Shown here piece by piece: positions 602 to 18,449 of a DNA stretch of 29,903 bases. The notes beneath the pieces were generated by a model. It worked only from the letters and a program-made list of their open reading frames with translations. It was not told the origin of the DNA and searched no databases. The DNA is taken from positions 1 through 29,903 of the IMG/VR virus record IMGVR_UViG_3300010373_000110; one strand, given 5' to 3'. This stretch comes from a virus. A program made the translations under genes and the position numbers. How positions within the stretch are numbered: the stretch's first letter is position 1; the number at the start of each line of letters is the position of its first letter.

Positions 602-630
602 ACTATACTGACCGTTCCGTCAGTTGTCAA
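602..630 (-). promoter_or_regulatory. Sigma70-type promoter with dyad operator in spacer
   Basis: Read on the minus strand, TTGACA (630-625) is separated by 17 bp from TATAGT (607-602). The spacer holds CTGAC-N6-GTCAG (608-623), a dyad that a bound repressor could use to block RNA polymerase. Transcription should start near 595, about 20 bases before the ATG at 575. The sequence is almost identical over 27 bases to the promoter at 18421-18449. The -35 box overlaps the last codons of the upstream small gene (stop at 620-622). Confidence 0.8.
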
Positions 631-778
631 GCGTTGCCCGCCGCTCGCGTTTCGTCATCCCACCCAACCTGGCGCGGTACCGGGCGCGCTCTGCGGCTCG
701 TAAGCGTTCGGCGTGTCTAGCGTAGTACCGGTCTGCGGCCCGCTTACGCGCCTCGGGCGAGCCCCTGCCGCTACTCAT
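620..778 (-). CDS. Small basic protein coupled to DNA polymerase
   Basis: This 52-aa protein is very rich in Arg and Ala (about a third of residues basic) and is predicted to be a continuous helix. The centre repeats short Arg-Ala-Glu-Arg-like blocks, and a Gly-Gly-Met-Thr-Lys segment follows. I do not recognise a family. Short helical basic proteins like this occur in many phages and may bind nucleic acid, but that is inference. The ATG at 778 overlaps the polymerase stop as ATGA, so it is probably translated by coupling after the polymerase. A longer reading of the same frame exists but would run far into the polymerase gene. Its last codons lie inside the promoter at 602-630. Confidence 0.6.
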   Translation of the reverse strand: MSSGRGSPEARKRAADRYYARHAERLRAAERARYRARLGGMTKRERRATLDN

Positions 779-3129
779 TCCCATTTCCCATGACGGTAGG
801 TCTCCTCGGCCGCGGGGGCTCGTATGGGCCAGGGGCGGCCCCAATCATCAACAGCCCACGGCTTGCCGGCGTTCACGATCGAGAGATACTCTGCGGTACT
901 CCCGCGGCCCTCCTCGACTTCGCACACGATCTCGTCGTGCGTGTGCATCACGGGCAGGTAGATTCCCCCCTCGTCGAGCGTAACGAGCGAATCAGCTTGG
1001 AACTCGCGCGAGACTTTCGCTACAACATTCTGCGTCTCCACGCCGCCGTAGAGATACATTTTAATCCAACCTATGGGACCTTTTTGGGCGTTTGAATTCC
1101 ACCCGTAATATGATAACTCCAACTCCCAAGGGCTCGCGTACTCACGCGCAGACGGTCGTAGTTCAGGCTGATGGTATACAAGGGGATCACCGTCACCAGG
1201 CGGCATGCAATAGAGTACGTCACCGTGGCACATAAACCGAACCCCTCGGTAGCCGTAACACACGCCACGGTGAAGGACTGCGGAGATAGCGGCACCCTCC
1301 AAGCCAAATAGCTCAGGCCGCTCTTCGTGGGTGAATTTGCCGCGTGTTTGACCTCCCCAAAATTCGGTGATGGCTGGCTGTTTCGCGCGTACGGCCAAAA
1401 TGACGCGCTTAATATTTTCATCGCTACCTAATATGTCGTCTGCGCCAAAGCGCTTCCAACCGGATATCCACGCGCCGAAGTCAGCTGACAATACGGCCAG
1501 TTTGCCTAGCTGTCTATCGTCATGATGCTTCTTATGTTTCTCGCGGTACCCAATGTACTCCTCTACGGGCGTTCCTGTTATCTGGCTAGCCATCGCTTCG
1601 TAAATTTTCCCGTGCGTGTGGAAAACATCGAGACGCCATTTCTCGCCAGCTAACGCACTAGTGACAACCGCTTGTATAGCGTTGTAATCAGACGCAATGA
1701 GCCTAAAACCATTGCGTGCCACAACCAAGGACCTAAGACAATCCGCAATGCATTCGAGCGCATCACCATAGATAGACTCAACAAACTCAAGCGACCTACT
1801 CGCAATAACAGCCAGCGCATGTTCTATCTTCTCCGGTTTGTCTAACTTACCCTTCCACACGTTAGCCATCTGTACGCCCTGGCCATTCCACAGAAACGTA
1901 TGTGCTGCTGCGTATGCGTATTGATGGCGTAGCCGACCGTCCGCACACACCTCTGCGCGCATCTTATATAGTTTTTTGACGCTGGCGAATGCAAGCTTCT
2001 GGCGTATCTGCAGCACACGGCTAATAGCGGGTGGTAGGGGGCTGCGTAAGTTTGTTAAAATATTTTCAACATAATCTTCGTCTAGGTTGCGAAGTTCTAC
2101 TCCGTGCGCTTCATATGCCCATGCGAGTATCTTCGCTACTTCGTTGGCTGATGTGATGCGGTTGCCTGTGATGTTGCGTAGCTCACCCTCGTACTTGGCG
2201 AAAGCTTGCTCCATCACGCATATGCAGTCCTCCATCGCCTTGGTGTCTATCTGCATACCTCGCTCGTTGACACGATCCGAGGTTTGGGCAATGCGCAGCT
2301 CGCGCGGCGAGAGATCGGGTATGCGCGAGTTGAGCGCCATCTCAGACACAACGTCTTGTTTGTTGTATTTATAGAATTTGGCGAAATCTTCCGCGGCGGT
2401 CTGCGGCGTCCAACGTAGCGCGGGGTTAGGCTTCGTGGGGTTGCGAGGTGCAGTGAGCTTCCGTATCAACGTATCGCCTACGGCGTCCTTGTGTAAATGA
2501 TCTTCCTTGCCAGGAATGAAAATTACTTTGCCGGCGTTGGACAACTTGCGCGGATATGCGCTCACCGCAGCTTTAGCCTGCGTGTCGCGACACTGCTCCA
2601 TTTTCAGCTCTGGCCATCCCCACGTGGGTACGCAGTAACCGTTCCACACTTCCCACTCGAAGCCAATGACGTTCCAACCGCCGAGGAGCCCGCCATTCGC
2701 AACGTGTTCTAATAACGCCCATGGCTGGGCGTATAGCATCGTTTCGTAGCAACCGGCCCTAAGTTGTTCTGGCCATTTGCCTGTGTACCAACTGGGGGTC
2801 CAATGGCGCACTCCTAGCCCGTCTAACATGTCGTAAGCCAGCGAAAGTACTTCGAACGTCGGATGCCGCACGTAATTACGCACACCTACAACTGGCAAAC
2901 CGCGGTTGGAATTTGCTATGCCTGGTAGACTAGCGAGTTTTACTGTTGGTGGTACCCACACTGGCTCGGGCGGAAGCGACACGAGCGGTAGTTTACGCTT
3001 ACGTTGTTTCCATTCGAGATACCCTGGCACTTGCTCCCACACGTAGCCCGCCTCGCTAAATGTCTCGAAGTCGCACGAAGGCAGAATTGTGCTCCATCCA
3101 TGGAGCGCCGGTACGCGTTGGTATTGCAT
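775..3129 (-). CDS. DNA polymerase, family A, with 3'-5' exonuclease
   Basis: This is the replicative polymerase of the phage, 784 aa from the chosen start. The exonuclease domain shows Asp-Phe-Glu-Thr-Phe-Ser near residues 20-25 (Exo I), an Asn...Phe-Glu segment near 150-160 (Exo II) and Tyr-Asn-Lys-Gln-Asp near 255-259 (Exo III), so proofreading looks intact. The polymerase domain has motif A (Asp481-Tyr-Asn-Ala-Ile-Gln486), motif B (Arg539 to Gly552 with the Arg-x3-Lys spacing and Phe-Gly at its end) and motif C (His731-Asp-Glu). Gln486 stands where family A enzymes have the conserved steric-gate Glu; see findings. The ATG at 3129 follows a GGACGGAG stretch. An in-frame ATG at 3156 has no Shine-Dalgarno and lies inside an inverted repeat, so I prefer 3129. 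The gene follows the ssDNA-binding-like gene and precedes a coupled small gene. Confidence 0.95.
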   Translation of the reverse strand: MQYQRVPALHGWSTILPSCDFETFSEAGYVWEQVPGYLEWKQRKRKLPLVSLPPEPVWVPPTVKLASLPGIANSNRGLPVVGVRNYVRHPTFEVLSLAYDMLDGLGVRHWTPSWYTGKWPEQLRAGCYETMLYAQPWALLEHVANGGLLGGWNVIGFEWEVWNGYCVPTWGWPELKMEQCRDTQAKAAVSAYPRKLSNAGKVIFIPGKEDHLHKDAVGDTLIRKLTAPRNPTKPNPALRWTPQTAAEDFAKFYKYNKQDVVSEMALNSRIPDLSPRELRIAQTSDRVNERGMQIDTKAMEDCICVMEQAFAKYEGELRNITGNRITSANEVAKILAWAYEAHGVELRNLDEDYVENILTNLRSPLPPAISRVLQIRQKLAFASVKKLYKMRAEVCADGRLRHQYAYAAAHTFLWNGQGVQMANVWKGKLDKPEKIEHALAVIASRSLEFVESIYGDALECIADCLRSLVVARNGFRLIASDYNAIQAVVTSALAGEKWRLDVFHTHGKIYEAMASQITGTPVEEYIGYREKHKKHHDDRQLGKLAVLSADFGAWISGWKRFGADDILGSDENIKRVILAVRAKQPAITEFWGGQTRGKFTHEERPELFGLEGAAISAVLHRGVCYGYRGVRFMCHGDVLYCMPPGDGDPLVYHQPELRPSAREYASPWELELSYYGWNSNAQKGPIGWIKMYLYGGVETQNVVAKVSREFQADSLVTLDEGGIYLPVMHTHDEIVCEVEEGRGSTAEYLSIVNAGKPWAVDDWGRPWPIRAPAAEETYRHGKWE

Positions 3130-3148
3130 CAACTCCGTCCGCCCATCG

Positions 3149-3210
3149 CCCCGCATGCCAATTCTGCCGCGTCCGTTAACCTAGATCAGAGAAGCAGACG
3201 GCATGCGGGG
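3149..3210. repeat. 11-bp perfect inverted repeat before the polymerase gene
   Basis: CCCCGCATGCC (3149-3159) and GGCATGCGGGG (3200-3210) are exact inverted repeats 40 bases apart, in the gap between the ssDNA-binding-like gene and the polymerase start. The arm contains the alternative start codon at 3156. In the minus-strand mRNA this would form a GC-rich stem about 20 bases before the chosen polymerase start. No T-run follows, so attenuation of translation or mRNA processing is more likely than termination. Confidence 0.5.
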
Positions 3211-3221
3211 CGGGGACTCTG

Positions 3222-4325
3222 CTAGGCCATGTAGCCTTGTTGCTTCATCTGATCGTCTGTCCAACCCTGAGCCCGGAACTGCTCGTAACTCGCACCCGCG
3301 GCCTTGGCCGTCATATTATGCGCTGGGGGCGCGGCAGGCGGCGGTGCCGCAGGCGGAGGGGGCTGCAGGAATGACGGCGCGGGCGCCACGTACGTTGGCG
3401 TGGCGGCTTGAGCATTGGCGGAGGGCGGGACGCCGGGGCTAGAAGGGAATGGTGTCGGCGCACTCACCCCTGGCATTGGGGCCATCACACCAGCTGGGGG
3501 AGCATACCCCGCCGAGGGGGCAGTTGCGGCCTGGGGCGGGAGGGGGCCAGGGAATCCACCCGGAGCCGCCCCAGGCGTAGGGAACGACGGAGTCGGCCCA
3601 GTGTTGAGCGGCGGCGGAAACGATCCGAACGGTGCGGGAGCTGCGGCAGGCGCACCGCCACCCACGGCTGTGAGTCCAGCAGGTACGGCAGACGAGCCAA
3701 ACCCTTGGATCGAGCGCGGATCAACGGCACCGCTGATCTCCTTGTCGATCGCCTTGAACATCACAAACTCGCCGTTGATGTAGATGCCTGGGTTGCCCGC
3801 AGATTCGTTTGTGTCGACGGTCGCGACAGTCTCCACGTGGAAGCCGCGTTTTACCGCGTTGGGTTCCGTGATAGGCCCGAAGCTCGTGTCGATGATCTTG
3901 GGCGGGTAAACGGACGAGCACGAGACGATCCAACAGCCCGCGAAACCTTCGGAACGCGCGTTGATACGACCCGCCTTGTTCGGGATGACCGAATCACCAT
4001 CCTCAATTTTCCACGCGAAGTCAGGACGCTGCGCAGCGCTCATGCCCTGCGGGTACTGCGGGGATGCCATCTTGGGATCCATCGGCCATGCGGCGAAACC
4101 GAATTCCCATATCGATTTGCCCCACGGGGTTTGACTCCAGTGTTGCTCGCCTTGCTTCTTGATCGCGAGTGCGAAGAAGTAGGTAATTTTGGGTTGGCCA
4201 GCGAGCCTATGGCCCGCGGGGTAAACCCGCTTCTGCTTCGTTACGAAGTCAGTGTCTTGCGCTTTGTACAGATCGCCTTGAACGATCCGTGCCAGCGGGA
4301 AGTTAACTCGAATTCTCTCAACCAT
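3222..4325 (-). CDS. Putative ssDNA-binding protein (DUF2815-like) with Pro-rich tail
   Basis: This 367-aa protein has two parts. The first 205 residues form a beta-rich domain. Its late segment (Pro-Gly-Ile-Tyr-Ile-Asn-Gly-Glu followed by Val-Met-Phe-Lys-Ala) resembles the end of DUF2815-type phage ssDNA-binding OB-fold proteins. From about residue 215 to 335 it is low-complexity Pro/Ala/Gly. It ends in a short conserved-looking motif with Gln-Gly-Trp-Thr-Asp-Asp-Gln-Met and Gln-Gly-Tyr-Met. A flexible tail with a conserved tip is typical of proteins that recruit replication partners, here perhaps the polymerase encoded next. The ATG at 4325 has an AGGAG sequence about 11 bases upstream. The gene lies 14 bp after the DUF2800 nuclease gene. 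The family call is from motif memory; another phage replication accessory role is possible. Confidence 0.65.
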   Translation of the reverse strand: MVERIRVNFPLARIVQGDLYKAQDTDFVTKQKRVYPAGHRLAGQPKITYFFALAIKKQGEQHWSQTPWGKSIWEFGFAAWPMDPKMASPQYPQGMSAAQRPDFAWKIEDGDSVIPNKAGRINARSEGFAGCWIVSCSSVYPPKIIDTSFGPITEPNAVKRGFHVETVATVDTNESAGNPGIYINGEFVMFKAIDKEISGAVDPRSIQGFGSSAVPAGLTAVGGGAPAAAPAPFGSFPPPLNTGPTPSFPTPGAAPGGFPGPLPPQAATAPSAGYAPPAGVMAPMPGVSAPTPFPSSPGVPPSANAQAATPTYVAPAPSFLQPPPPAAPPPAAPPAHNMTAKAAGASYEQFRAQGWTDDQMKQQGYMA

Positions 4326-4339
4326 GTGTGCGGTTGCTC

Positions 4340-6682: not shown

Positions 6683-6714
6683 GGGTTTCCTCTTATGGGT
6701 TTGTGCGATAGGGG

Positions 6715-6742
6715 TTGACGGGAGCGGATGGTACGGTACACT
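6715..6742 (+). promoter_or_regulatory. Rightward promoter for helicase operon
   Basis: TTGACG (6715-6720) and TACACT (6737-6742) are separated by 16 bp. Transcription would start near 6749, about 20 bases before the helicase ATG at 6769, leaving room for the AGGGA Shine-Dalgarno sequence at about 6759-6763. The dyad at 6741-6756 covers the end of the -10 and the start point, so a bound repressor would block it. Confidence 0.65.
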
Positions 6743-6756
6743 GACCGCCACGTCAA
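6728..6756 (-). promoter_or_regulatory. Leftward promoter for replication operon
   Basis: On the minus strand TTGACG (6756-6751) is 17 bp from TACCAT (6733-6728). The start would be near 6721, about 39 bases before the ATG at 6682. It overlaps the rightward promoter, and the shared dyad covers its -35 box. Confidence 0.6.
6741..6756. promoter_or_regulatory. Operator dyad shared by divergent promoters
   Basis: CTGAC-CGCCAC-GTCAA fits the TGAC-N6-GTCA pattern found at four other promoters here; the outermost base pair is imperfect. One bound dimer could silence both the helicase operon and the polymerase operon at once. Confidence 0.65.
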
Positions 6757-6768
6757 TAAGGGACATGC

Positions 6769-8469
6769 ATGGGTTTATACGACTTCCAAGTAGCCGCTAA
6801 ACTTCGCACATACGAAGAGTGGCACAAGCCTAACGTGTTCAACGTCATACTGAATGTTCCCACGGGTGGGGGTAAAACTGTCCTATTTTGCGATATCGTG
6901 CGCGAGTTCAACGCGCCTGCGTGCGTCATTGCGCACCGCCAAGAGCTGATCTCTCAAGCTTCACTCGCGCTTAATCGCGAAGGATTACAACATGACATTT
7001 TGGCGCCGAAAGACGTTAAACAACAGATCATCCGAGCCCATCACGACATTCATGGGACTAGCTATTATCGTGGCGGCAGCAGCGTTCGTGTTGCTGGCGT
7101 TAACAGCCTGGCACGTGATGCGGCTGTTGATCGTTGGCATTCTCAAGTTGGCATCGTGGTTCAAGATGAGGGCCATCACGTTCTGCGCCAAAATATGTGG
7201 GGCCGTGCAATGGCCCGATTTCCGAACGCTCGCGGCTTGTTTCCTACTGCTCACGCTGTGCGCGCTGACGGTCGCGGTTTGGGCCGCAGTGCTGATGGCT
7301 TGGCGGATGCTATTGTTATGGGACCTAACGCTAGGCATCTCATCCAACGTGGCTTTCTTACTGATTATCGGCTTTTTTGGCCATCTAGCGACATTGACTT
7401 TAGCAACGTCCCTGTTACTGCATCGGGCGATTACTCGCTGCCTAAGCTACGTGCGATTACGCATGGATCGAATCGTATTGTCGGAGATGTTGTTAGAAAG
7501 TACCTCGAACACGGAGAAGGTAAATTAGGTGTCACGTTTGCCGTTGATATTGAAGCAGCGGAAGAATTGGCCGCGGCGTACAACAAGGCGGGCGTGCCTG
7601 CGGAAGTCATTACGGCGGATACGCCAATTGGGATCCGCGCCCAACTCATGCGCCAATTTCGGTCCCGTGTTCTGCTTCAGCTCGTATCCGTGGATTGCTT
7701 GGGTGAGGGTGTTGACGTGCCTGCAATCGAGATCGTTAGCATGGTCCGCAAGACAGCCTCATTTCAGCTGTACGCACAACAATTTGGCCGCGCGTTACGA
7801 GTTATGGTCTCGGCTGAGCACGCATCTGCATGGAGTAGTTACACGGATGAACAGAGACTTGCTGCAATTGCTTGTTCTACGAAACCCAAAGCGATAGTCA
7901 TAGACCACGTTGGAAATGCGAGTTTTCACGGATTGCCTGATATGCCTCGCGTTTATAGTTTGGATCGCGCGGAAACTCGCGCACGCGCAAAAGCGGGTCC
8001 TGAAGCTCTAAAAGCTTGTCCAGATTGTACCCGCCCATATGAGCGATTCCTATCTAATTGCCCATACTGCGGTTTTATGCCGGAACCACGAGCACGTTCA
8101 ACTCCTGAGCAAGTTGAAGGGGATGTTATCGAGCTATCACCAGAAATACTTGCACAAATCCGCGGAGATATCGCAACAGTTGACGACCCTCCAAATTCCC
8201 ACGGGTTAGGTGTTGTGGGGCGCTCCATACGCAAAAACCATCACGAGCGCCAGGCAGCGCAGCTCACCTTACGTAAGGCGATGGCGATATGGGGCGGCTG
8301 GCGTCTCCACGTGGGGGAATCAATCCGTGACGCGAACCGTAGATTTTGGTATCAATTCGGTGTAGATGTACTCACCGCGCAAACACTAGGCGTACGCGAA
8401 GCCAACGAGTTAGAAGCTCGTATCCGCGCCGATCTAACTACACACGATGTAAGGGTGCTAGCCGCATGA
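6769..8469 (+). CDS. SF2 DNA/RNA helicase with C-terminal zinc ribbon
   Basis: This 566-aa ATP-dependent SF2 helicase of the phage DEAD/DEAH-like type probably acts in replication or recombination. Motif I is Pro31-Thr-Gly-Gly-Gly-Lys-Thr37, motif II Asp133-Glu-Gly-His136, and motif VI Gln337-Gln-Phe-Gly-Arg-Ala-Leu-Arg344. The motif III region reads Thr-Ala-His-Ala (160-163), where such phage helicases usually have Thr-Ala-Thr-Pro. A Cys-x2-Cys...Cys-x2-Cys group (417, 420, 431, 434) forms a probable zinc ribbon, followed by a helical C-terminal region. The ATG at 6769 follows AGGGA at good distance; an ATG four bases earlier opens only a shadow frame. It heads an operon whose next genes overlap as ATGA. 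Residues 75-254 are also covered by a second long frame (6992-7528), which coincides with the degenerate motif III. Confidence 0.93.
   Translation: MGLYDFQVAAKLRTYEEWHKPNVFNVILNVPTGGGKTVLFCDIVREFNAPACVIAHRQELISQASLALNREGLQHDILAPKDVKQQIIRAHHDIHGTSYYRGGSSVRVAGVNSLARDAAVDRWHSQVGIVVQDEGHHVLRQNMWGRAMARFPNARGLFPTAHAVRADGRGLGRSADGLADAIVMGPNARHLIQRGFLTDYRLFWPSSDIDFSNVPVTASGDYSLPKLRAITHGSNRIVGDVVRKYLEHGEGKLGVTFAVDIEAAEELAAAYNKAGVPAEVITADTPIGIRAQLMRQFRSRVLLQLVSVDCLGEGVDVPAIEIVSMVRKTASFQLYAQQFGRALRVMVSAEHASAWSSYTDEQRLAAIACSTKPKAIVIDHVGNASFHGLPDMPRVYSLDRAETRARAKAGPEALKACPDCTRPYERFLSNCPYCGFMPEPRARSTPEQVEGDVIELSPEILAQIRGDIATVDDPPNSHGLGVVGRSIRKNHHERQAAQLTLRKAMAIWGGWRLHVGESIRDANRRFWYQFGVDVLTAQTLGVREANELEARIRADLTTHDVRVLAA
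6992..7528 (+). CDS. Possible overprinted membrane protein nested in helicase gene
   Basis: A 178-codon frame lies wholly inside the helicase gene in another frame of the same strand. Its ATG has AAGGA 7 bases upstream. The product has three or four strongly hydrophobic stretches: roughly residues 21-40 and 42-57, then two between about 80 and 145. Arg/Lys residues lie between them and a hydrophilic C-terminus follows, which would suit a holin-like or other inner-membrane protein. The helicase frame is certainly real here because its motifs are conserved, so this would be a genuine overprinted gene or a chance artefact. Long shadow frames are common in this window and some reading frames inside helicases are naturally hydrophobic, so confidence is low. 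The Shine-Dalgarno and membrane pattern are the only positive evidence. Confidence 0.25.
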   Translation: MTFWRRKTLNNRSSEPITTFMGLAIIVAAAAFVLLALTAWHVMRLLIVGILKLASWFKMRAITFCAKICGAVQWPDFRTLAACFLLLTLCALTVAVWAAVLMAWRMLLLWDLTLGISSNVAFLLIIGFFGHLATLTLATSLLLHRAITRCLSYVRLRMDRIVLSEMLLESTSNTEKVN

Positions 8470-10303: not shown

Positions 10304-10310
10304 GCGAGAC

Positions 10311-11236: not shown

Positions 11237-11571
11237 CGCATACATGTCACTGGCTTGGATGCGGCAAAGCCGTTCCACCCGCAATGTGGGGTTGCAAGGC
11301 GCATTGGTTCGCGCTGCCGAAACATCTCCGCGATCGCATCTGGGCAACGTATCGACGTGGGCAGGAGATTACTAAGACACCGAGCCGCGAGTATCTCGAT
11401 GCCGCACAAGCGGTTCGGCAGTGGATCCGCGATCGACAACAGGTGCAGCACACCCGTGATCTTCAAGCTAGCGAGGCTGTATCACTCGACAAGACTCTGG
11501 CTCGATCGCCGCGACGAGTTAGTGAGCCCCCTCCTGAGCCAACCTCACCCATAGATTTTGAGCGTACTTGA
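11233..11571 (+). CDS. Small zinc-binding phage protein
   Basis: This 112-aa protein starts with Cys-His-Trp-Leu-Gly-Cys-Gly and Met-Trp-Gly-Cys-Lys-Ala-His-Trp-Phe, a compact set of Cys and His residues that should bind one zinc ion. It is followed by Leu-Pro-Lys-His-Leu-Arg-Asp and a Tyr-Leu-Asp-Ala-Ala-Gln-Ala-Val-Arg-Gln-Trp-Ile helix. This layout is very common among phage hypothetical proteins; their role is unknown. The final 40 residues are low-complexity and Pro/Ser/Glu-rich. The ATG overlaps the oxygenase stop as ATGA. Codon use returns toward that of the phage backbone. Its stop codon lies inside the operator of the TetR-type gene. Confidence 0.75.
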   Translation: MTHTCHWLGCGKAVPPAMWGCKAHWFALPKHLRDRIWATYRRGQEITKTPSREYLDAAQAVRQWIRDRQQVQHTRDLQASEAVSLDKTLARSPRRVSEPPPEPTSPIDFERT

Positions 11572-11596
11572 CGCTCCCGTCATTTAACCGTAATCT
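11568..11596 (+). promoter_or_regulatory. Autoregulated promoter of TetR-type gene with operator
   Basis: TTGACG (11568-11573) is 17 bp from TAATCT (11591-11596). TGAC-GCTCCC-GTCA (11569-11582) overlaps the -35 box and matches the dyad at the other four sites. The predicted start, about 11603, is only a few bases before the ATG at 11607, so the mRNA would be almost leaderless. The -10 match is only fair. Confidence 0.55.
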
Positions 11597-11606
11597 CCGG
11601 AACATC

Positions 11607-11900
11607 ATGCTCAAAGAAACAATACTTGGGGCCGCGGTAAATCTTGCACGCGAGTCAAGTTACCGCGATATCTCCCGGCGAGATGTAGCGCTCGCCGCGG
11701 AGTGTGCCAGTGGCACGGTGAACTATCATTTCGAGTCCATGGACCTATTACGCACTGCTGTCGTAGAGTATGCAGTCCAGCACGAGATTGTGGAAATCGT
11801 CGCGGACGCACTCGCTAATAAACACCCAACAGCGATTGCCGCCCCCGAAGCGTTACGTAGACGCGCAGCCCGTCAGTTGAGTGGCGTAGACCGTCTCTAA
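11607..11900 (+). CDS. Short TetR-type transcriptional regulator
   Basis: The 97-aa product is almost only a TetR-family DNA-binding domain. Helix 1 begins Ile-Leu-Gly-Ala-Ala, the helix-turn-helix spans about residues 24-42, and it ends with Tyr40-His-Phe42, the family signature. Leu-Leu-Arg-Thr-Ala-Val then leads into helix 4. Normal TetR proteins have about 200 residues with a C-terminal ligand and dimer domain; here only about 50 residues remain after the HTH. It may dimerise differently or respond to no ligand. I start it at the ATG at 11607; an upstream TTG at 11568 would add 13 non-family residues inside the promoter. A TGAC-N6-GTCA site lies 25 bp upstream, and four more lie at other promoters of the window. 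This makes it the leading candidate for the phage's repressor and suggests autoregulation (inference). Confidence 0.8.
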   Translation: MLKETILGAAVNLARESSYRDISRRDVALAAECASGTVNYHFESMDLLRTAVVEYAVQHEIVEIVADALANKHPTAIAAPEALRRRAARQLSGVDRL

Positions 11901-11907
11901 TCGTTCG

Positions 11908-11929: not shown

Positions 11930-11952
11930 GCTACAGCTTCGCGTAGATCACA

Positions 11953-14421
11953 ATGCAGGATACCAGACTACTGGCCGCGCTCTCTACCTATCGCGGTTTC
12001 ATTGTTTGGCGATTTGTCCAAAAACCTGACACGCCTAAGCCTGCCAAAGTCCCTATCTGGCCGCACACTGGTCAGCTCTGCAATTGGATGGATCCGGCCG
12101 CGTGGATGTTACCCAACGATGCGCTAGCCTGGGCTCGCCATCTCGGCCCGGAATTCGGCGTAGGGCTCGTGCTCACCCCTGACTGCGGGCTCATCGCCAT
12201 AGACCTTGACAGTGCGCGTGACCCCTCGGGCGGATGGTATCCCCACGTGGCGGCATTCGAGTCGCAGTTCCGTGGGGCTTACCTCGAGACATCCATTAGC
12301 GGCCAAGGTAGGCATATCATCGCCCGCGTAACGTCAGCGCTCCTGCCGCAGCATGGCACGCGCAATGCTGACTTCCGCGCTGAGGCGTACTCTCGTGACC
12401 GGTTCATCGCGCTCACGGGTGCGGATGCCTCGGGCTCGCTTGAGGTGGACCATACGGCGACCGCTCAGCGGTTCCTAGCGATGTATTTTCCGCCCTCGGA
12501 CTCGAGCCATGATGGCGAGTGGCGGGAGGGGCCTGTAGATGCCTGGCACGGCCCTGGCGACGATGAGGCGCTAATCCGACTCGCACGTCGGTCTGCGAGC
12601 CCGCGGGCGATTTGGGGCGGCCGGGCGGCGTTTGCCGACCTATGGGACCGCAACGACGATATCCTGAGTCGCGTATTCCCCCCGCAGACACCTGGCCAGC
12701 CGTACGACGGGTCGGCTGCGGACCAGGCTCTAGCCAATCATCTAGCGTTCTGGACTGGCAATGACTGCCCCCGGATGGAGCGGCTCATCAAAGCATCGGG
12801 ACTGCAGCGCCCGAAGCACGATCGGCCGGACTATATGCGCCGCACGATTCTCGCAGCTTGCGCGAGTCAGCGAGAATGGTACAGTGGTGGCGCGGCGAAG
12901 GTAGGGTGTGAACCTGGCATGAGCCAGGCGGGCGGTACTGACTCACAAGAACCCCAACGCGTAGTGGCGGAGCGAAACGAGTCGGCCCCTACCTTAGCCG
13001 CAAGCATCGAATTGGTTGGAGCACCGCAGCCTTCACAAAATAGGCCGGTGCCAGTCGTAGCTGGAGCGGTGCTCCAACCTGGCGAACTTCCCGAGCCTGG
13101 TACCTATCTCAACATTCTTCTGGCAAAACAACATTTCGCAAGCTGCGTGTATGTGCAGGATGTGGATCGCATACAGGATGAGCGCGGCTATCTCTTGAGC
13201 AAGGAGCAATTCGACAACACACGCAAGAGCTGCATATGGCCTATGGAGCCTGATGGCTCGAAACCCTCCGCCTCCGCGTGGGAATCGTTCGTGGGTAACA
13301 AAATCCATCGGTTCCCTTCTGTGCGAGCCCAATATTTCGGGCCATGCGATCCGCGCGGGCACATACGTATCAACGAGGATGGCTCGCAGGAAATCAACTC
13401 GTACATCCCGCTTAACATCCGTAAGGTAGATGGCGATCCCACGCCATTCATACAGCACGTGCAACGATTGCTACCGTACGATTGGGAGCTGATGATTCAT
13501 ACACTCGCCGCACGCGTGCAATTCCAAGGCACCAAATTCATGTGGGCGCCGTTCCTGCAAGGTACGAAAGGCAATGGTAAAACGCTCCTCGCTAAAATTA
13601 TCGAATATGCGGTAGGTAAACGATACGTGCACTGGCCCAAGGCGGACCAGCTCGATGAGAAATACAACTCGATGTTCGTCAACATCGTTCTAGCCATCAT
13701 CGATGAGATGGAAAAATTTCCGCTCGAGATCGAGCCCGTGCTAAACGCTATAGTCACCGCTACACGCATGGAGATTCGTGCGATGCGCACTGATAAAGTC
13801 ATGCGTGATGTATGTTTCAATACTATCTTCATAGGCAACGAGCAAACCTCACTGCGATGCGATCCGGACCAACGTCGCTATGCGCCGTTTTTCTGCGCTC
13901 AGCAACACAAAGCTGACTTGAAACGTGATGGTCTAACGCCTGAGTACTTCCGTTGGTTCCGCAATTGGTTGGAGAAAGAAGATGGCTTTGCAATATGCGC
14001 CAATTATCTGTCCTGCTTGCCGCTACCAGATTCCGCGAAACCTGATTTCTGTATACGTGCACCGGATACTACATCTACACTCGCCGCATATGGGGCGAGC
14101 CGAACCGCTGCAGAGCAAGAGATTGTCCACGCTATAGAGCAACACCGCGAAGGGTTCCGTAACGGTTGGATCTCCTCTCACGCGGTTGATATGGAATTCG
14201 CTCGCTCAGGCCGCTCGCGCTCTATGTCGTTGAACGCACGGCGTGGAGTTATAGAGGGGTTGGGCTACCGCACGCACCCGTCGTTACAGGATGGGCTGTG
14301 CACAGTGGCGATGCCCGATGGCAACAAACCACGCTTATATATTCACGAGTCACACCCATGGTGTGTACCAGGACTCAGTGTTGAGCAAGTTAGAATGGGT
14401 TACTTAGAGGCGCAGAAATGA
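11953..14421 (+). CDS. Primase-helicase: prim-pol-like domain plus SF3 helicase
   Basis: This 822-aa replication protein primes DNA synthesis and unwinds the fork. The N-terminal 180 residues look like a bifunctional primase-polymerase domain: a Gly-Leu-Val-Leu-Thr strand, Ile-Asp-Leu-Asp at about 82-85 as metal ligands, and Gly-Gln-Gly-Arg-His-Ile-Ile near 116-122. A linker follows, including a low-complexity part around 310-380. The C-terminal domain is an SF3-type (DUF5906/D5-like) ATPase with Walker A Gly-Thr-Lys-Gly-Asn-Gly-Lys-Thr at about 537-544 and Walker B Ile-Ile-Asp-Glu-Met near 582-586. Ile-Gly-Asn-Glu-Gln (about 630) and Arg-Arg-Tyr probably form the sensor and Arg finger. The ATG at 11953 has only a weak ribosome site. 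Together with the polymerase and the SF2 helicase it makes a self-sufficient replisome core. Confidence 0.9.
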   Translation: MQDTRLLAALSTYRGFIVWRFVQKPDTPKPAKVPIWPHTGQLCNWMDPAAWMLPNDALAWARHLGPEFGVGLVLTPDCGLIAIDLDSARDPSGGWYPHVAAFESQFRGAYLETSISGQGRHIIARVTSALLPQHGTRNADFRAEAYSRDRFIALTGADASGSLEVDHTATAQRFLAMYFPPSDSSHDGEWREGPVDAWHGPGDDEALIRLARRSASPRAIWGGRAAFADLWDRNDDILSRVFPPQTPGQPYDGSAADQALANHLAFWTGNDCPRMERLIKASGLQRPKHDRPDYMRRTILAACASQREWYSGGAAKVGCEPGMSQAGGTDSQEPQRVVAERNESAPTLAASIELVGAPQPSQNRPVPVVAGAVLQPGELPEPGTYLNILLAKQHFASCVYVQDVDRIQDERGYLLSKEQFDNTRKSCIWPMEPDGSKPSASAWESFVGNKIHRFPSVRAQYFGPCDPRGHIRINEDGSQEINSYIPLNIRKVDGDPTPFIQHVQRLLPYDWELMIHTLAARVQFQGTKFMWAPFLQGTKGNGKTLLAKIIEYAVGKRYVHWPKADQLDEKYNSMFVNIVLAIIDEMEKFPLEIEPVLNAIVTATRMEIRAMRTDKVMRDVCFNTIFIGNEQTSLRCDPDQRRYAPFFCAQQHKADLKRDGLTPEYFRWFRNWLEKEDGFAICANYLSCLPLPDSAKPDFCIRAPDTTSTLAAYGASRTAAEQEIVHAIEQHREGFRNGWISSHAVDMEFARSGRSRSMSLNARRGVIEGLGYRTHPSLQDGLCTVAMPDGNKPRLYIHESHPWCVPGLSVEQVRMGYLEAQK

Positions 14422-14558: not shown

Positions 14559-14889
14559 TGGCTCGAGCTGTGTGACGTTTGCGCATGCCTGCAGCAACGA
14601 GTTTGTTGCGTTCGCGGATGTTATCTGAGTGCATCCCGATCGAGACGTTACCCACTGCGTACGGTCCTCGGTCTCGGTGGCGCATCATGACAGCTCCACC
14701 AGCCCATGCCCCTCTAACATCCCATAGGCCGGATTCCTGCCAGATGCTCCACCACTGATCGAACGTCAGCAGGAACGAAACCCCCCGTCTGCGGGCATTC
14801 TGCCTATGCCGTTGGTATTGTCCCTTCGGCGTCTTTTCGTAACGCTTCTGATATTCCAACTGAAGCTCAACATTGCGGTTTCTTGCCAT
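14530..14889 (-). CDS. HNH-like phage protein (possible homing-type nuclease)
   Basis: This 119-aa protein has a basic N-terminal helix (Gln-Tyr-Gln-Arg-His-Arg-Gln-Asn-Ala-Arg-Arg-Arg-Gly-Val). It is followed by Phe-Leu-Leu-Thr-Phe-Asp-Gln-Trp-Trp-Ser-Ile-Trp and later Gly-Pro-Tyr-Ala-Val-Gly-Asn-Val-Ser-Ile with an Asn-Ile-Arg-Glu-Arg-Asn end. This order is seen in small phage HNH-type endonucleases. The Asp-Arg-Gly-Pro-Tyr...Asn-Val part is the usual last section of the HNH fold, but the first His pair is not clear here, so activity is uncertain. The ATG at 14889 lies 4 bp after a small membrane-protein gene. Free-standing genes of this type often behave as selfish elements; I see no intron or split gene beside it. 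Confidence 0.55.
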   Translation of the reverse strand: MARNRNVELQLEYQKRYEKTPKGQYQRHRQNARRRGVSFLLTFDQWWSIWQESGLWDVRGAWAGGAVMMRHRDRGPYAVGNVSIGMHSDNIRERNKLVAAGMRKRHTARATTVLFVEQG

Positions 14890-14893
14890 TGCT

Positions 14894-15034
14894 CTACACG
14901 AGAAATGTCGCTAGGAACATACCCACGGAAAGGATAAGCCCAACCCACAGCCCCACGCACTTCCAATCGATGGCATCCTCTTTGCGGCGTTTTGGCGGGT
15001 TTATCATCAGTTCCCATACGATATCATCATCCAA
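14894..15034 (-). CDS. Small single-span membrane protein
   Basis: The reading starts at TTG (15034-15032), with GGAG 8 bases upstream, and gives 46 aa. An acidic head is followed by a basic Pro-Pro-Lys-Arg-Arg-Lys-Glu-Asp turn. A strongly hydrophobic segment of about 20 residues rich in Val, Leu, Gly and Phe runs to the stop at 14896-14894. An ATG at 15007 would give 37 aa and keep the basic turn and membrane segment. The positive charges before the span predict the N-terminus inside the cell. The role is unknown: small phage membrane proteins include lysis factors, Rz-like proteins and superinfection-exclusion peptides. The HNH-like gene begins 4 bp after its stop. Confidence 0.5.
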   Translation of the reverse strand: MDDDIVWELMINPPKRRKEDAIDWKCVGLWVGLILSVGMFLATFLV

Positions 15035-15118
15035 TTGAGTAACTCCAGCTTCATTTACTGAGATGCAGCTTACAGTCTGGATCGGGCCGCATCCTTGCAG
15101 CCCGTCACAGATCTGTAT

Positions 15119-15373
15119 TCATTTGTACGTTAAGTACGTCTCCCACAGTTTGCGTAACAGATTGTCTATTATGACAATCTCAGTATCCAACGAACGGTGA
15201 GCGTCCTTGAGCGTACCGTCATTGCCGGCGCGTATCTGCTCCTCCATCAGCATCAGATCCCTGTACATTTTATCTCGCACCGGCCGCAGATGCCGCAACG
15301 CGCAGTTGGTCTCGATCATCGTCACTGAGACGGTTTTAACCTCTTGCGGGTCCGGGCCGCCCCCGGCGCTCAC
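15119..15373 (-). CDS. 84-aa helical hypothetical protein
   Basis: GTG at 15373 overlaps the stop of the preceding gene as GTGA. An internal ATG 18 codons later is possible but lacks a good ribosome site. The protein is almost all helix with heptad-like Leu/Ile/Met spacing (Met-Tyr-Arg-Asp-Leu-Met-Leu-Met-Glu-Glu-Gln-Ile and Ile-Ile-Asp-Asn-Leu-Leu-Arg-Lys-Leu), so a coiled-coil dimer is likely. No family is recognised. It lies second in the operon that begins with the 243-aa gene under the operator at 16177-16192. About 85 bases with no clear gene separate it from the small membrane protein. Confidence 0.65.
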   Translation of the reverse strand: MSAGGGPDPQEVKTVSVTMIETNCALRHLRPVRDKMYRDLMLMEEQIRAGNDGTLKDAHRSLDTEIVIIDNLLRKLWETYLTYK

Positions 15374-16101
15374 GTAGCACCGCGATGCAGCTGGGGCACA
15401 CCCACACGCGTGCGCTGTGGTCCTCGGTCAGCGATCGATCTCCTCGTCACCATCGTTGCTGCGGGCTCCTCCTCGACTTCGGGCTCGAGATCGTCGAGGG
15501 CCTTTTGGAATTCCGCCAGTAGCCTTTCGAGCGTGTGCCTGGCGTTATCGGGATTATCCCGCACTTGGCGCCTCACGGCCCGGAGCAATGCCCCTTCGGC
15601 TCGTGTGATTTGTCGTTGTACCTTGTCCGTGGGCTCCGGGGGCGCCACAGCGGCCCGCAGCGCCGTTTTCGTGGTATTGGCCGCCTCCAGGGTTCGCAGA
15701 TCGCCGCCCGCCTCCACGTACCGCACAAGCGCATGCATGGCCGTTCGGGCGAATGCCGACCGGGCATTACGTTCGAGACTACGACGTCGTTGTTCATCGG
15801 CGGGCAGGTCCGGCTCGATCGCCACGTCTGGCGTTACGATGCCCCGGAGCACCGCGGCGTAGAACCGCTCATGGGCGCGGCCTAGCACGGCCAACTGTGC
15901 CTCGGTGTTGACACGAGCTGCAGCCCGACCGCGGGGGCGGCCTAGCTCTGCTTGGGCTGCAACGAGGAGCACGCGCAAATACGTTCCGTCTGCGCCTGAT
16001 ACGGCAACAGCGTTCGCATATCGGTCGTGGGCCAATGTCTCAACATCGGACTCGGTCGCAACCCAATGGCCCTTTTCTAGCTTAGCGTTTATAGTAGTCA
16101 T
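15370..16101 (-). CDS. 243-aa hypothetical helical protein, first gene after operator
   Basis: This Ala/Arg-rich protein has long helices. The segment from about 80 to 110 includes Ile-Val-Thr-Pro-Asp-Val-Ala-Ile-Glu-Pro, and a charged stretch around 200-215 (Leu-Glu-Pro-Glu-Val-Glu-Glu-Glu) precedes a basic tail. I recognise no family and see no Cys motif, signal or membrane segment. Composition and helix content would suit a nucleic-acid-associated or structural accessory protein, but this is not evidence of function. The ATG at 16101 has GAGA about 7 bases upstream. The operator dyad at 16177-16192 lies about 75 bases above it, tying this operon to the proposed repressor. Confidence 0.7.
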   Translation of the reverse strand: MTTINAKLEKGHWVATESDVETLAHDRYANAVAVSGADGTYLRVLLVAAQAELGRPRGRAAARVNTEAQLAVLGRAHERFYAAVLRGIVTPDVAIEPDLPADEQRRRSLERNARSAFARTAMHALVRYVEAGGDLRTLEAANTTKTALRAAVAPPEPTDKVQRQITRAEGALLRAVRRQVRDNPDNARHTLERLLAEFQKALDDLEPEVEEEPAATMVTRRSIADRGPQRTRVGVPQLHRGAT

Positions 16102-16176
16102 GTTATGTCTCTAGCATGTTAAGCAACACAACGTTGCGAGTTGTATATTGCAAGGCCCATGCCAGCCCCTAAAATA

Positions 16177-16192
16177 CTGACTAATACGTCAG
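16177..16192 (-). promoter_or_regulatory. Operator dyad with weak promoter
   Basis: CTGAC-TAATAC-GTCAG has perfect outer arms. Read on the minus strand a TATTTT -10 follows directly (16176-16171), as at the other sites, but the -35 position has no TTGACA. The promoter is therefore weaker or needs help. It precedes the 243-aa gene. Confidence 0.6.
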
Positions 16193-16249
16193 TTCTACGC
16201 TGCTAAGGTGTGCTTAAGCTGGAAAAATTACAATCAAACTTACAACACA

Positions 16250-16284
16250 AATAAAAACCCCCAGCCACAAGCGCCAGGGGTTAA
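16250..16284 (-). terminator. Intrinsic terminator of small-gene operon
   Basis: On the minus strand AACCCC (16282-16277) pairs with GGGGTT (16261-16256) around a loop of about 15 bases, followed by a TTTTTATTT run. It lies 23 bp after the last gene of the 16307-18413 operon and separates it from the next operator-promoter. Confidence 0.75.
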
Positions 16285-16306
16285 CATAACGAACAGGTCT
16301 GTCAGC

Positions 16307-16528
16307 TTATATTTGCAAGGCGTATCCACGAGCGCGTTGGTTAAGCCAATCACACACTGCTTGCGCATCCTCAATCGTGTAGTTTTCACGATGTTTCCAT
16401 TCTGTGCGTACCGTGTTGCGAAAATTCGGTCCGTAACCATGAAGCTTCACCCAACCCACATCGCGGGATTCCTGCATGTATGGGATCGGGCAATTACTCG
16501 GGGTGCGGATTACGCTAAACTTATCCAT
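16307..16528 (-). CDS. 73-aa hypothetical protein, paralogue A
   Basis: This is the last gene of the eleven-gene minus-strand operon. The product starts with Met-Asp-Lys-Phe-Ser-Val-Ile and ends with Glu-Asp-Ala-Gln-Ala-Val-Cys-Asp-Trp-Leu-Asn-Gln-Arg-Ala-Arg-Gly-Tyr. That ending is nearly identical to the neighbouring gene at 16533-16757, so the two are a tandem duplication. The middle has Gly-Tyr-Gly-Pro-Asn-Phe...His-Arg, suggesting a small alpha/beta fold. The function is unknown. The ATG at 16528 lies 4 bp after the previous stop, and the terminator follows. Confidence 0.7.
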   Translation of the reverse strand: MDKFSVIRTPSNCPIPYMQESRDVGWVKLHGYGPNFRNTVRTEWKHRENYTIEDAQAVCDWLNQRARGYALQI

Positions 16529-16532
16529 GCCA

Positions 16533-16757
16533 TTAGCTCATATTCGCGAGGTTATACCCGCGAGCACGTTGGTTCAGCCAATCGCACACAATTTGTGCAT
16601 CTTCGAACGTGTAGCTCGCGCGGTGTGCAGCCTCAGTGTGCAGTTCCGCGTAATCGAAACCGGGGCCGAACACGTGGTAACGGAGGTTTTTCTTGGCACG
16701 TACCGCGATTACGTTCCGCCCTGTAGCCGTACGTTTTTCAACAGCGTATATAATCAT
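16533..16757 (-). CDS. 74-aa hypothetical protein, paralogue B
   Basis: The ATG at 16757 overlaps the previous stop as ATGA. The product begins with Ile-Ile-Tyr-Ala-Val and has a basic Lys-Arg-Thr-Ala-Thr-Gly-Arg segment. It ends with a Tyr-Thr-Phe-Glu-Asp-Ala-Gln-Ile-Val-Cys-Asp-Trp-Leu-Asn-Gln-Arg block shared with paralogue A. The conserved C-terminal helix and the divergent N-terminus suggest the helix carries the common function. No family is recognised. Confidence 0.7.
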   Translation of the reverse strand: MIIYAVEKRTATGRNVIAVRAKKNLRYHVFGPGFDYAELHTEAAHRASYTFEDAQIVCDWLNQRARGYNLANMS

Positions 16758-16972
16758 TGTATCAACTCCAAATCGTCCTTGGCCCACCAAAACGTCCAAC
16801 CAGTTTCGAAACTGATGCGCATCAACCCCAGCTCCTCCTCGTCCCACCCGTGTGCTTCTTGCTCTGCGTTAGTCGGTGAGGGTTCTACGACAGCCTGCAT
16901 TCCAACACATATGCCTTTTTCCTCGGCAATTTGCGGAACTCGGGTAATCACCACTCGATCGCCTGGCTTCAT
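16754..16972 (-). CDS. 72-aa small beta-barrel-like protein
   Basis: The product begins Met-Lys-Pro-Gly-Asp-Arg-Val-Val-Ile-Thr-Arg-Val, then Gly-Ile-Cys-Val-Gly-Met-Gln-Ala-Val-Val. It ends with Thr-Gly-Trp-Thr-Phe-Trp-Trp-Ala-Lys-Asp-Asp-Leu-Glu-Leu. The Pro-Gly-Asp-x-Val start and alternating strands look like a small SH3-like or KOW-like barrel, as in many small phage proteins. The acidic middle loop is rich in Glu. Both ends are coupled by ATGA overlaps in the small-gene operon. The function is unknown. Confidence 0.7.
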   Translation of the reverse strand: MKPGDRVVITRVPQIAEEKGICVGMQAVVEPSPTNAEQEAHGWDEEELGLMRISFETGWTFWWAKDDLELIQ

Positions 16973-17280
16973 AGTGTCAGCTCCAGCTCAGCGTCAGTGG
17001 TTATGTGGACTCCGTCGAAGTCGGTCACATCGCCAGCCTTATGCGCAATGAATCGGAGATGACGCGCATACATGCGCAGCTCTGTGCCGCTATCCTCTAC
17101 GATAACGCCAGGCAACATCGCGTTGAGACGACCGCGATCTACAAACACCTTGCGGATTCGTCCATAGGGTAGCGTGGCCATTGTGGGCCGTACCCATGGC
17201 ACACTCACGGCTTGCGGGGGCATTTCGCAACCTGGCGCTCCGCAGAACGGAGTCCTTTTATCGGGTGTACATTTGCACAT
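16969..17280 (-). CDS. 103-aa phage protein with N-terminal Cys knuckle
   Basis: The N-terminus Met-Cys-Lys-Cys-Thr-Pro-Asp-Lys-Arg-Thr-Pro-Phe-Cys-Gly-Ala-Pro-Gly-Cys is a motif seen at the start of many small phage proteins and probably binds zinc. The rest is beta-rich, ending in an acidic Asp-Ala-Glu-Leu-Glu-Leu segment. The ATG at 17280 follows a GGA element and lies inside the preceding gene by 76 bp. The end overlaps the next ATG as ATGA. The function is unknown. Confidence 0.75.
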   Translation of the reverse strand: MCKCTPDKRTPFCGAPGCEMPPQAVSVPWVRPTMATLPYGRIRKVFVDRGRLNAMLPGVIVEDSGTELRMYARHLRFIAHKAGDVTDFDGVHITTDAELELTL

Positions 17281-17393
17281 GTCTGATCCTGTGATGCTTT
17301 CTGAGCGCGCTCGAGCTTCCGCAGGAACGCAGATTTTGGAGTGAGCCGCGGTTGCGGGTCGCGGGTGAGGTAGCCATAGCGAAATCGTTTCAT
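17205..17393 (-). CDS. 62-aa basic protein overlapping its neighbour
   Basis: The ATG at 17393 overlaps the preceding membrane-protein stop as ATGA. The product is basic throughout (Met-Lys-Arg-Phe-Arg-Tyr-Gly-Tyr and Phe-Leu-Arg-Lys-Leu-Glu-Arg-Ala-Gln-Lys). Its last 25 codons overlap the start of the 103-aa gene in another frame. This overlap is larger than elsewhere in the operon. The gene is supported by coupling and by the otherwise empty gap, but the C-terminal part may be poorly conserved. Confidence 0.5.
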   Translation of the reverse strand: MKRFRYGYLTRDPQPRLTPKSAFLRKLERAQKASQDQTCANVHPIKGLRSAERQVAKCPRKP

Positions 17394-17518
17394 GGTGAGA
17401 AGAATACTAACACCCACACCGCGGCCAACGCCAACGAGTAGCGCGGCCGGATGTACGGATCCACCAAGAGCCCAATAACCGCGACGACTGCCAGCACGAT
17501 TATTTTGGCGGGGCTCAC
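17390..17518 (-). CDS. 42-aa two-span membrane peptide
   Basis: The GTG at 17518 overlaps the preceding stop as GTGA, and its own stop overlaps the next ATG as ATGA. The product is two hydrophobic stretches (about residues 6-19, Val/Ile/Leu/Ala, and 28-40, Leu/Ala/Val/Trp/Phe). They are joined by Asp-Pro-Tyr-Ile-Arg-Pro-Arg-Tyr, a membrane hairpin with a positively charged turn. Such tiny membrane proteins in phage operons may act in lysis timing or exclusion, but no family is recognised. Confidence 0.6.
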   Translation of the reverse strand: MSPAKIIVLAVVAVIGLLVDPYIRPRYSLALAAVWVLVFFSP

Positions 17519-17739
17519 GAGCGTATGCCCAGCTTCTCCGCCACTCTCGCCACGAGTGAGGCGCCATGAATCGCCTCGGCAACCTCCTGTGCGAAGTAAA
17601 TCTGCGTGGCGGCGTGCAACCGCTGGTAGAACACCGCGTTGCGCATCTCCACGGGCCACATCTTCGCTACCTCGGGCATGGTCGCGGCGGTGTGGGTTTC
17701 GAGATCTGCGAGCGCGGCGAAAATCTTCTCTGTGTTCAT
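17515..17739 (-). CDS. 74-aa helical hypothetical protein
   Basis: The ATG at 17739 overlaps the stop of a 34-aa gene, and the stop overlaps the next GTG. The product is Ala-rich and helical: Glu-Lys-Ile-Phe-Ala-Ala-Leu-Ala-Asp-Leu-Glu-Thr-His, then Met-Trp-Pro-Val-Glu-Met-Arg, then a helix ending in Leu-Gly-Ile-Arg-Ser. There is no Cys, signal or membrane segment. I recognise no family. It lies between two predicted membrane peptides in a strictly coupled chain. Confidence 0.7.
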   Translation of the reverse strand: MNTEKIFAALADLETHTAATMPEVAKMWPVEMRNAVFYQRLHAATQIYFAQEVAEAIHGASLVARVAEKLGIRS

Positions 17740-17840
17740 AGCGTACTCCAGCGGCTACGGCGCAACGTGGCGCGGTGAGCCAAGACAGTGATGAGACCGG
17801 CCAACAGCCAGTTGGATTGGATCTGAGAGAGCTTCGTCAC
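17736..17840 (-). CDS. 34-aa membrane-type peptide with basic tail
   Basis: This is one of the shortest genes here. GTG at 17840 overlaps the preceding stop as GTGA, and TGA at 17738-17736 overlaps the next ATG. The product has a hydrophobic run (Trp-Leu-Leu-Ala-Gly-Leu-Ile-Thr-Val-Leu-Ala) and then a strongly basic tail (His-Arg-Ala-Thr-Leu-Arg-Arg-Ser-Arg). This would be a short membrane anchor with the tail in the cytoplasm. The exact filling of the gap between coupled genes argues for reality. Confidence 0.55.
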   Translation of the reverse strand: MTKLSQIQSNWLLAGLITVLAHRATLRRSRWSTL

Positions 17841-18037
17841 GTGCGTGATTCCTCGGCTAGCGCTGTGGGTTTCATAGGATGACCGTTGATGCTAACTACG
17901 CAGCCATTGGCGTACTCGCCATCTACACACATCCATGTGCCATCCGTAAATTCTACCGTCAATTCGCGGCACTGCGGTCCGCGCTCAGGGTACGAAACAC
18001 GCGCGACGGTCTTCCCCAAGAGATCAGCGGCGTTCAT
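17837..18037 (-). CDS. 66-aa hypothetical beta-rich protein
   Basis: The ATG at 18037 overlaps the previous stop as ATGA. The product has Asp-Leu-Leu-Gly-Lys-Thr-Val-Ala-Arg-Val, then Glu-Leu-Thr-Val-Glu-Phe-Thr-Asp-Gly-Thr-Trp and Gly-Cys-Val-Val-Ser-Ile-Asn-Gly. Alternating strands suggest a small barrel. It contains three Cys residues without a clear zinc pattern. No family or function is recognised. Confidence 0.7.
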   Translation of the reverse strand: MNAADLLGKTVARVSYPERGPQCRELTVEFTDGTWMCVDGEYANGCVVSINGHPMKPTALAEESRT

Positions 18038-18228
18038 CCGTTATACCCCGCAGTTTCCAGAAATTTCGCCCGATCGAAGTTACGATCCCAACGGGCGAAA
18101 TGATCGGCCAGCATCCTGATGGATGTGTATACGCCGCAGTTGTACATATGAGCGTTGGGGTTGCCCGGCTCCTCCCGCAGCGCCAATTTAAGGTTGGCTG
18201 CGATGCTGACGTAGTCGCCTGTGGTCAT
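18034..18228 (-). CDS. 64-aa hypothetical protein
   Basis: The ATG at 18228 lies 2 bp after the previous stop, and the end overlaps the next gene as ATGA. A longer frame upstream overlaps the previous gene and lacks support. The product is mixed helix: Asp-Tyr-Val-Ser-Ile-Ala-Ala-Asn-Leu-Lys-Leu-Ala-Leu-Arg, then Asn-Cys-Gly-Val-Tyr, then Phe-Ala-Arg-Trp-Asp-Arg-Asn-Phe-Asp. It resembles short phage proteins of unknown role. There is no membrane or signal segment. Confidence 0.7.
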   Translation of the reverse strand: MTTGDYVSIAANLKLALREEPGNPNAHMYNCGVYTSIRMLADHFARWDRNFDRAKFLETAGYNG

Positions 18229-18230
18229 GC

Positions 18231-18413
18231 TCACGTGCGTATCTCCTGCGTGGTTATTCGTATTACTTCGGCGCGGGCTGTCGTGGGGATGCCCAGGCCC
18301 GTCGCCACGCCTGGAACTGGCCTGCGAAACCAATCGCGCTCGTATCGCTCCGCCCCCACCATCAGACGGTGCGTGCGGGGAACGTTCTTCAGCGATGGCA
18401 TTTTTGCTCTCAT
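18231..18413 (-). CDS. 60-aa hypothetical protein, first gene of small-gene operon
   Basis: The product is basic, starting Met-Arg-Ala-Lys-Met-Pro-Ser-Leu and containing Glu-Arg-Tyr-Glu-Arg-Asp-Trp-Phe-Arg-Arg-Pro. The promoter at 18421-18449 puts the predicted transcript start almost exactly at this ATG, so translation may be leaderless. Alternatively it begins at the second ATG (18401), which would leave about 12 bases of leader with a weak GAGAG. It leads eleven short genes expressed together. No family is recognised. Confidence 0.6.
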   Translation of the reverse strand: MRAKMPSLKNVPRTHRLMVGAERYERDWFRRPVPGVATGLGIPTTARAEVIRITTQEIRT

Positions 18414-18420
18414 GGACGCG

Positions 18421-18449
18421 AATATACTGACCGCTCCGTCAGTTGTCAA
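18421..18449 (-). promoter_or_regulatory. Sigma70-type promoter with dyad operator in spacer
   Basis: On the minus strand TTGACA (18449-18444), 17 bp, then TATATT (18426-18421). CTGAC-N6-GTCAG (18427-18442) fills the spacer. It differs from the promoter at 602-630 by a single base over 27. It drives the eleven-gene operon at 16307-18413. Confidence 0.8.

Follow-up and report, generated by a model that had tools for sequence, protein, structure and literature searches.

What owns the TGAC-N6-GTCA dyads that stand at the promoters of a phage encoding an unusually short TetR-type protein? We studied IMG/VR virus record IMGVR_UViG_3300010373_000110, a fragment analysed over its whole length of 29,903 bp (the window), in which five such dyads occur and one of them precedes the gene of a 97-residue protein, here called mini-TetR. 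The initial annotation had seen in this arrangement a phage repressor regulon built on a TetR-type protein. This proposal was strongly supported by the co-occurrence of gene and dyad in related phages, the register of dyads and promoters, the presence of an operator upstream of most tetR genes, another dyad in two other-helix relatives, and a search that started from the operator. Taken together, these lines point to mini-TetR being, in all probability, a phage-borne, autoregulated repressor of host-sigma70 early promoters, the "early" status of which is deduced from their gene content.

An exact scan of the window returned TGAC-N6-GTCA at 609-622 (TGACCGTTCCGTCA), 6742-6755 (TGACCGCCACGTCA), 11569-11582 (TGACGCTCCCGTCA), 16178-16191 (TGACTAATACGTCA) and 18428-18441 (TGACCGCTCCGTCA), the same five places that had been found by eye, against 0.41 matches expected. 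Dinucleotide shuffles of the window (2000 replicates) contained 0.42 dyads on average and 4 at most, so that five were never attained. All five dyad centres were intergenic, in a window of which about 14% is intergenic by the drawn gene list (p = 5e-5); the operator at 11569 shares bases with the last 3 of the upstream open reading frame. Neither a chance-level frequency nor a location inside genes, the two sequence-based outcomes that the initial annotation had named as contrary to it, was thus found. Among dyads with 4-mer half-sites and gaps of 0-12, TGAC-N6 showed the highest enrichment in the window (p = 1.6e-5, uncorrected), a value that is by itself merely marginal once the approximately 3000 dyads are corrected for, and because of this the window alone would not settle the matter. 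Allowing one mismatch brought the count to 12, the 5 exact dyads among them, versus 10.2 expected; one-mismatch dyads thus showed no enrichment and were rejected as weak operators of the window. No dyad was found before the terminase genes within this fragment, in keeping with the earlier remark that no copy precedes packaging genes.

The dyads were placed at promoters in a constant manner, as had been suspected: a -10-like hexamer was present in fixed register at 5/5 of them, versus 3.6% of random window positions. The dyads at 609 and 18428 occupy the 17-bp spacers of near-consensus minus-strand promoters, the former (602..630, TTGACA-17-TATAGT) driving the minus-strand gene 255-575 and the latter (18421..18449, TTGACA-17-TATATT) driving small minus-strand genes. 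The operator at 11569 lies in the promoter of the mini-TetR gene itself, with its first half-site inside the -35 TTGACG (11568-11573) and a -10 TAATCT at 11591-11596 on the + strand, at 17-bp spacing and directed towards the 97-residue gene; its in-register -10 count came from the minus strand, the tetR-facing -10 matching at 3/6 positions. In the divergent promoter region at 6742, the + strand carries -35 TTGACG (6715-6720) and -10 TACACT (6737-6742), the latter touched by the first base of the dyad, and would serve an operon whose first gene encodes a DEAD/DEAH-type helicase by profile matches (6769..8469, + strand); on the minus strand, -35 TTGACG (6751-6756) includes the second half of the dyad and is followed by -10 TACCAT (6728-6733). 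The dyad at 16178, upstream of the minus-strand gene 15370-16101, has a minus-strand -10 TATTTT (16171-16176) in register and a poor -35.

The mini-TetR gene (11607..11900, + strand) starts 25 bp past its operator copy, as annotated initially. Its product passed the Pfam TetR_N cut-off narrowly (25.7 bits versus 24, residues 6-50) and matched the profile phrog_8723 (E = 2e-24), an entry whose function is listed as unknown in PHROGs. An AlphaFold2 monomer model from nine aligned sequences (predicted local distance difference test score 92.9, predicted template modelling score 0.83) presented helices at 2-16, 24-30, 35-42, 45-58, 62-70, 74-77 and 81-92. Among the Protein Data Bank (PDB) matches listed for the model all were TetR-type, DNA-bound EilR being the first, with weak E-values (0.016 and up) and large root-mean-square deviations outside the DNA-binding part; a PDB profile search also returned TetR proteins, and three viral structure models matched mini-TetR over most of its length. 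With TetR_N as the only fold passing its cut-off and structural matches to TetR, a CI/Cro-type fold was not found. The usual C-terminal ligand-binding and dimerisation domain is absent from the 97-residue protein, the model showing only three short helices after helix 4, and release by a small ligand is not expected because no ligand domain is seen. Directly downstream lies a primase/helicase gene (11953..14421, + strand; phrog_1829, 8e-91), a conserved neighbour that marks the locus in other phages.

Using tblastn, we found the mini-TetR gene in Klebsiella jedunaviruses and in Pantoea, Pectobacterium, Edwardsiella, Vibrio, Shewanella, Acinetobacter and other phages, often directly ahead of the primase gene. 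Exact dyads were numerous in these genomes: KpV52 (14), AAM22 (13), Geezett (17), JD001 (14), KsaM-C1 (14), LAPP1 (16), PEAT2 (17), PEi21 (13), VchM-138 (8) and Scuro (5). In the eight gene-carrying relatives ranked by script (KpV52, AAM22, Geezett, KsaM-C1, PEAT2, PEi21, VchM-138 and Scuro), TGAC-N6 was the first or second most enriched 4-mer dyad, and the 5-mer forms TGACG-N4-CGTCA, TTGAC-N6-GTCAA and TGACA-N4-TGTCA reached p values between about 1e-7 and 1e-20 in relatives. Twelve of the 14 KpV52 dyads are centred in the intergenic 6% of that genome (p = 2e-13). Closest to the window is L076 (51.6-kb contig), whose primase is 59% and mini-TetR 55% identical to those of the window and whose contig bears 11 sites, four of which match the window operators 6742, 11569, 16178 and 18428 by gene order; the first has its counterpart at 4291 in L076 (and at 38171/38228 in KpV52), the third at 12822 and the fourth at 13741. 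The tetR gene has an operator close upstream in the window, L076, the jedunaviruses (KpV52), AAM22, PEi21, Scuro and two contigs, G006 and G007, described below. Shewanella phage SppYZU01 had two sites only, both at promoters; TGAC and GTCA are strongly depleted in its genome, as if avoided (0.03 TGAC-N6-GTCA expected). In SppYZU01 (L014:982-1482) and Acinetobacter phage Scuro (L022:2280-2780) the protein occurs as a 166-residue version with two phrog_8723 stretches, perhaps a fused pair in which a second, degenerate TetR-type helix-turn-helix lies ahead of the TetR domain.

Genomes with related primases and no phrog_8723 (9NA, Carvaje of Klebsiella and 2207-N35) contained zero dyads. Rhizobium phage RHph_Y21, lacking mini-TetR, presented 11 exact dyads, but 0/11 were at promoters and they were taken as the background of a large phage. 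Two further phages were dropped as gene-less controls: Psp6, where mini-TetR was found and whose 3 dyads are not at promoters, and OLIVR4, whose gp28 is a divergent family member. Across eleven mini-TetR genomes, an in-register -10-like hexamer accompanied 73/116 exact sites; the corresponding figures were 18/255 for one-mismatch sites and 6.2% for random positions (Fisher test, 8e-30, the true weight being lower as the genomes are related). In most relatives the -35 begins one base ahead of TGAC and the dyad usually contains it (TTGACG-17-TAnnnT). Less symmetric dyads were seen at matching places ahead of terminase and baseplate genes in KpV52 (174-187, TGACGGTACAGTCA, before terminase; 23500-23513, TGACGTGAGTGTCA, before a baseplate gene) and AAM22 (24860-24873, TGACGTGACTGTCA); some late promoters may be touched through such dyads as putative weaker operators.

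The dyad also led to the gene. IMG/VR was scanned with the operator plus promoter context alone (TTGNNAACTGAC-N6-GTCAGTAT), and five contigs matched besides that of L076. Two of these, G006 (11 sites) and G007 (12 sites), previously unseen, both encode phrog_8723 next to primase, the gene following a site at a distance of about 20-35 bp; phrog_8723 was not matched in G003 (a 9.7 kb fragment), G004 (a 21.8 kb fragment) or G005 (an 84-kb contig with two sites).

Family members with other recognition helices carried other dyads. Five copies of GTAGCGC-N4-GCGCTAC occur in Pseudoalteromonas phage PY6 (helix PPAVQHH), every one of them within a TTGACN-17-TACNCT promoter spacer; ahead of the phage's own tetR operon, the -10 is overlapped by a palindrome related to these. 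In Agrobacterium phage OLIVR4, where gp28 is a 78-residue member (phrog_8723 E = 1e-4 and 4e-6), TACAA-N5-TTGTA occurs eight times, the majority of copies lying within promoter spacers (p = 2e-20); a scan with gp28 gave no relatives. These two cases support, without amounting to a code, the view that a different helix comes with a different dyad at an unchanged place in the promoter. A fixed residue code, with Gly before the helix predicting the operator, was dropped, as L076 lacks this Gly yet keeps TGAC. The part of the case that is read from sequence consists of the sites and their register with promoters, the TetR fold predicted for the protein, conservation and co-occurrence, and the other dyads of the two other-helix relatives.

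Two other observations concern the place before the primase. In Salmonella phage 9NA it is occupied by gp73 (L025:1027-1200), a 57-residue protein with no Pfam or PHROG family match, and the genome has eight TAACA-N5-TGTTA dyads versus 0.2 expected, several near the genome ends; protein and dyad are possibly an analogous regulator pair. In Pseudomonas phage Psp6, gene 35 (L026:893-1153), directly before primase, weakly matches ribbon-helix-helix/Arc-like repressors, and mini-TetR sits elsewhere (16084-16335).

Dimeric binding, repression and timing during infection are what we infer from this material. Since the dyad either includes the -35 (TTGACG) or occupies the 17-bp spacer, two mini-TetR subunits bound to TGAC-N6-GTCA through the TetR-type recognition helix would keep host sigma70 polymerase off the promoter. 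Mini-TetR would regulate itself by negative feedback at its own promoter, and its other putative targets are the divergent helicase/recombination promoters and small early genes. Early promoters would fire on entry, mini-TetR would accumulate, and early transcription would then shut down together. Mini-TetR most likely acts as a timer of early shut-off rather than a keeper of lysogeny, a preference that follows from the failure to find a tyrosine integrase in 18 records and from the description of phages 138 and phiPLPE as lytic (PMC3391216).

Several observations weigh against such a repressor. Phages phiPLPE, Psp6, PD0307, R9Y3, CKB-S1 and L005/G001 carry the protein, and operator searches there gave nothing convincing; their sites may be scarce or degenerate, their promoters different, or the protein may do something else there. 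The tetR of VchM-138 is not preceded by a site, and the eight sites of OLIVR4 are far from its gene. Mini-TetR lacks the usual TetR dimer domain by which family members pair, and repression rather than activation is deduced from site position alone.

The initial annotation had set the regulon beside those of cI-type repressors. The logic of the parallel stood, since the dyad and promoter scans showed several operators including that of the protein's own gene, as with phage CI/Cro-type repressors, where one small repressor acts on several early-promoter operators with negative feedback; mini-TetR differs in having a TetR fold and in that no lysogeny genes were found by a tyrosine integrase search, and the implied likeness in lysogeny was not supported. 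An immunity repressor, one that maintains lysogeny or pseudolysogeny and shuts out superinfecting phage instead of timing lytic growth, would share the several early operators and the autoregulation, and would fit the anti-repressor gene annotated in KpV52 and phiPLPE and the attachment site speculated for phiPLPE, CP-T1 and 138 (PMC3391216). We consider this role unlikely: no tyrosine integrase (PF00589) was found in the window, itself a fragment, or in 17 related records, a search that left serine integrases and plasmid-type maintenance aside; 138 and phiPLPE are described as lytic; and one scan of 84,980 bacterial and archaeal genomes, weak in that it reaches close relatives only, gave no relative. 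That mini-TetR is an activator or a replication/partition protein using the dyads is suggested by the adjacent primase gene and is quite improbable, since the dyads overlap the -35 or fill near-consensus spacers, where a bound protein would exclude polymerase, and are spread over the genome at promoters with no cluster at one origin.

Less probable still is that a host TetR-family regulator owns the dyads. The Escherichia coli RutR site is TTGACCANNTGGTCAA, a form fitting TGAC-N6-GTCA that was not confirmed in the literature searched; a TetR protein from the host may recognise a dyad of like form, and the sites lie at host-type promoters. However, in phages from several host genera the dyads accompany the phage gene, Carvaje and 9NA, related in primase but without phrog_8723, have none, other-helix relatives carry another dyad, and the scan with the operator alone arrived at the gene. 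That so short a dyad clusters by chance, as the marginal enrichment in the window after correction would allow, has negligible probability: the shuffles and the relatives rejected it, as the top dyad recurs independently in eight other genomes and in fixed register, and the operator-first search succeeded.

The gene itself was already known, as its TetR annotation stands in many phage records. The "TetR family transcriptional regulator" of Klebsiella jedunaviruses (KpV52 gp67, JD001 gp45) is a homologous small protein beside primase, as in the window, 36-38% identical to mini-TetR, and jedunavirus genomes have 14-17 copies of the same dyad at promoters; the window phage also uses the spacer-filling layout. 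Some of these promoters are marked in the KpV52 record, the operators are not, and the jedunavirus regulator is known as an annotation only. A tetR-like gene was noticed in phiPLPE, CP-T1 and 138, and a co-opted cellular (osmotic stress) regulator was suggested (PMC3391216, 2012); the words operator, promoter and palindrome are absent from that text, and the GC-rich repeats of its Table 3 (phiPLPE, CP-T1, 138) are tandem repeats, not these dyads. Phage 138, with its homologous tetR-like gene, has eight of the window's dyads. Bacterial EilR, EbrR, AmvR and RutR resemble mini-TetR in the DNA-binding fold, the recognition helix and the promoter palindrome, and autoregulation is common among them. 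Full TetR proteins have approximately 170-210 residues with ligand and dimer domains, whereas mini-TetR has 97 and neither domain; it also differs from bacterial TetR repressors in its many targets across a phage genome. No description of its operators or regulon was found in the literature searched, from which subscription papers were largely and preprints wholly outside, and their novelty is provisional.

Elsewhere in the window, the closest match of the terminase large subunit (25749-27443) was that of Burkholderia phage Magia (46%), and the phage looks mosaic, with a Magia-like terminase and a jedunavirus-like primase and mini-TetR. A 1071-residue open reading frame (20613-23828), built of repeated GLPISSGVSGLGTG-type units, probably encodes a surface protein such as a tail fibre.

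These results give a likely and testable function to phrog_8723, a family of many Klebsiella jedunaviruses, and make the early regulon of mini-TetR phages readable from sequence alone. The phages further offer a natural set in which one small repressor fold is paired with different operators, of use in learning how recognition is encoded and as a source of small synthetic-biology repressors. A further question is what a global early repressor is needed for in phages that have no integration genes. More broadly, we give an even chance to the view that a widespread lytic phage group uses a TetR DNA-binding domain free of a ligand domain as a genome-wide off-switch of host-sigma70 early promoters, and that the pre-primase slot is a hotspot of regulator replacement, holding TetR-type proteins with at least 3 dyads, the 57-residue protein of 9NA or the ribbon-helix-helix-like one of Psp6. 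If this replacement reading is true, operator and regulator would have been re-coded together in phage evolution.

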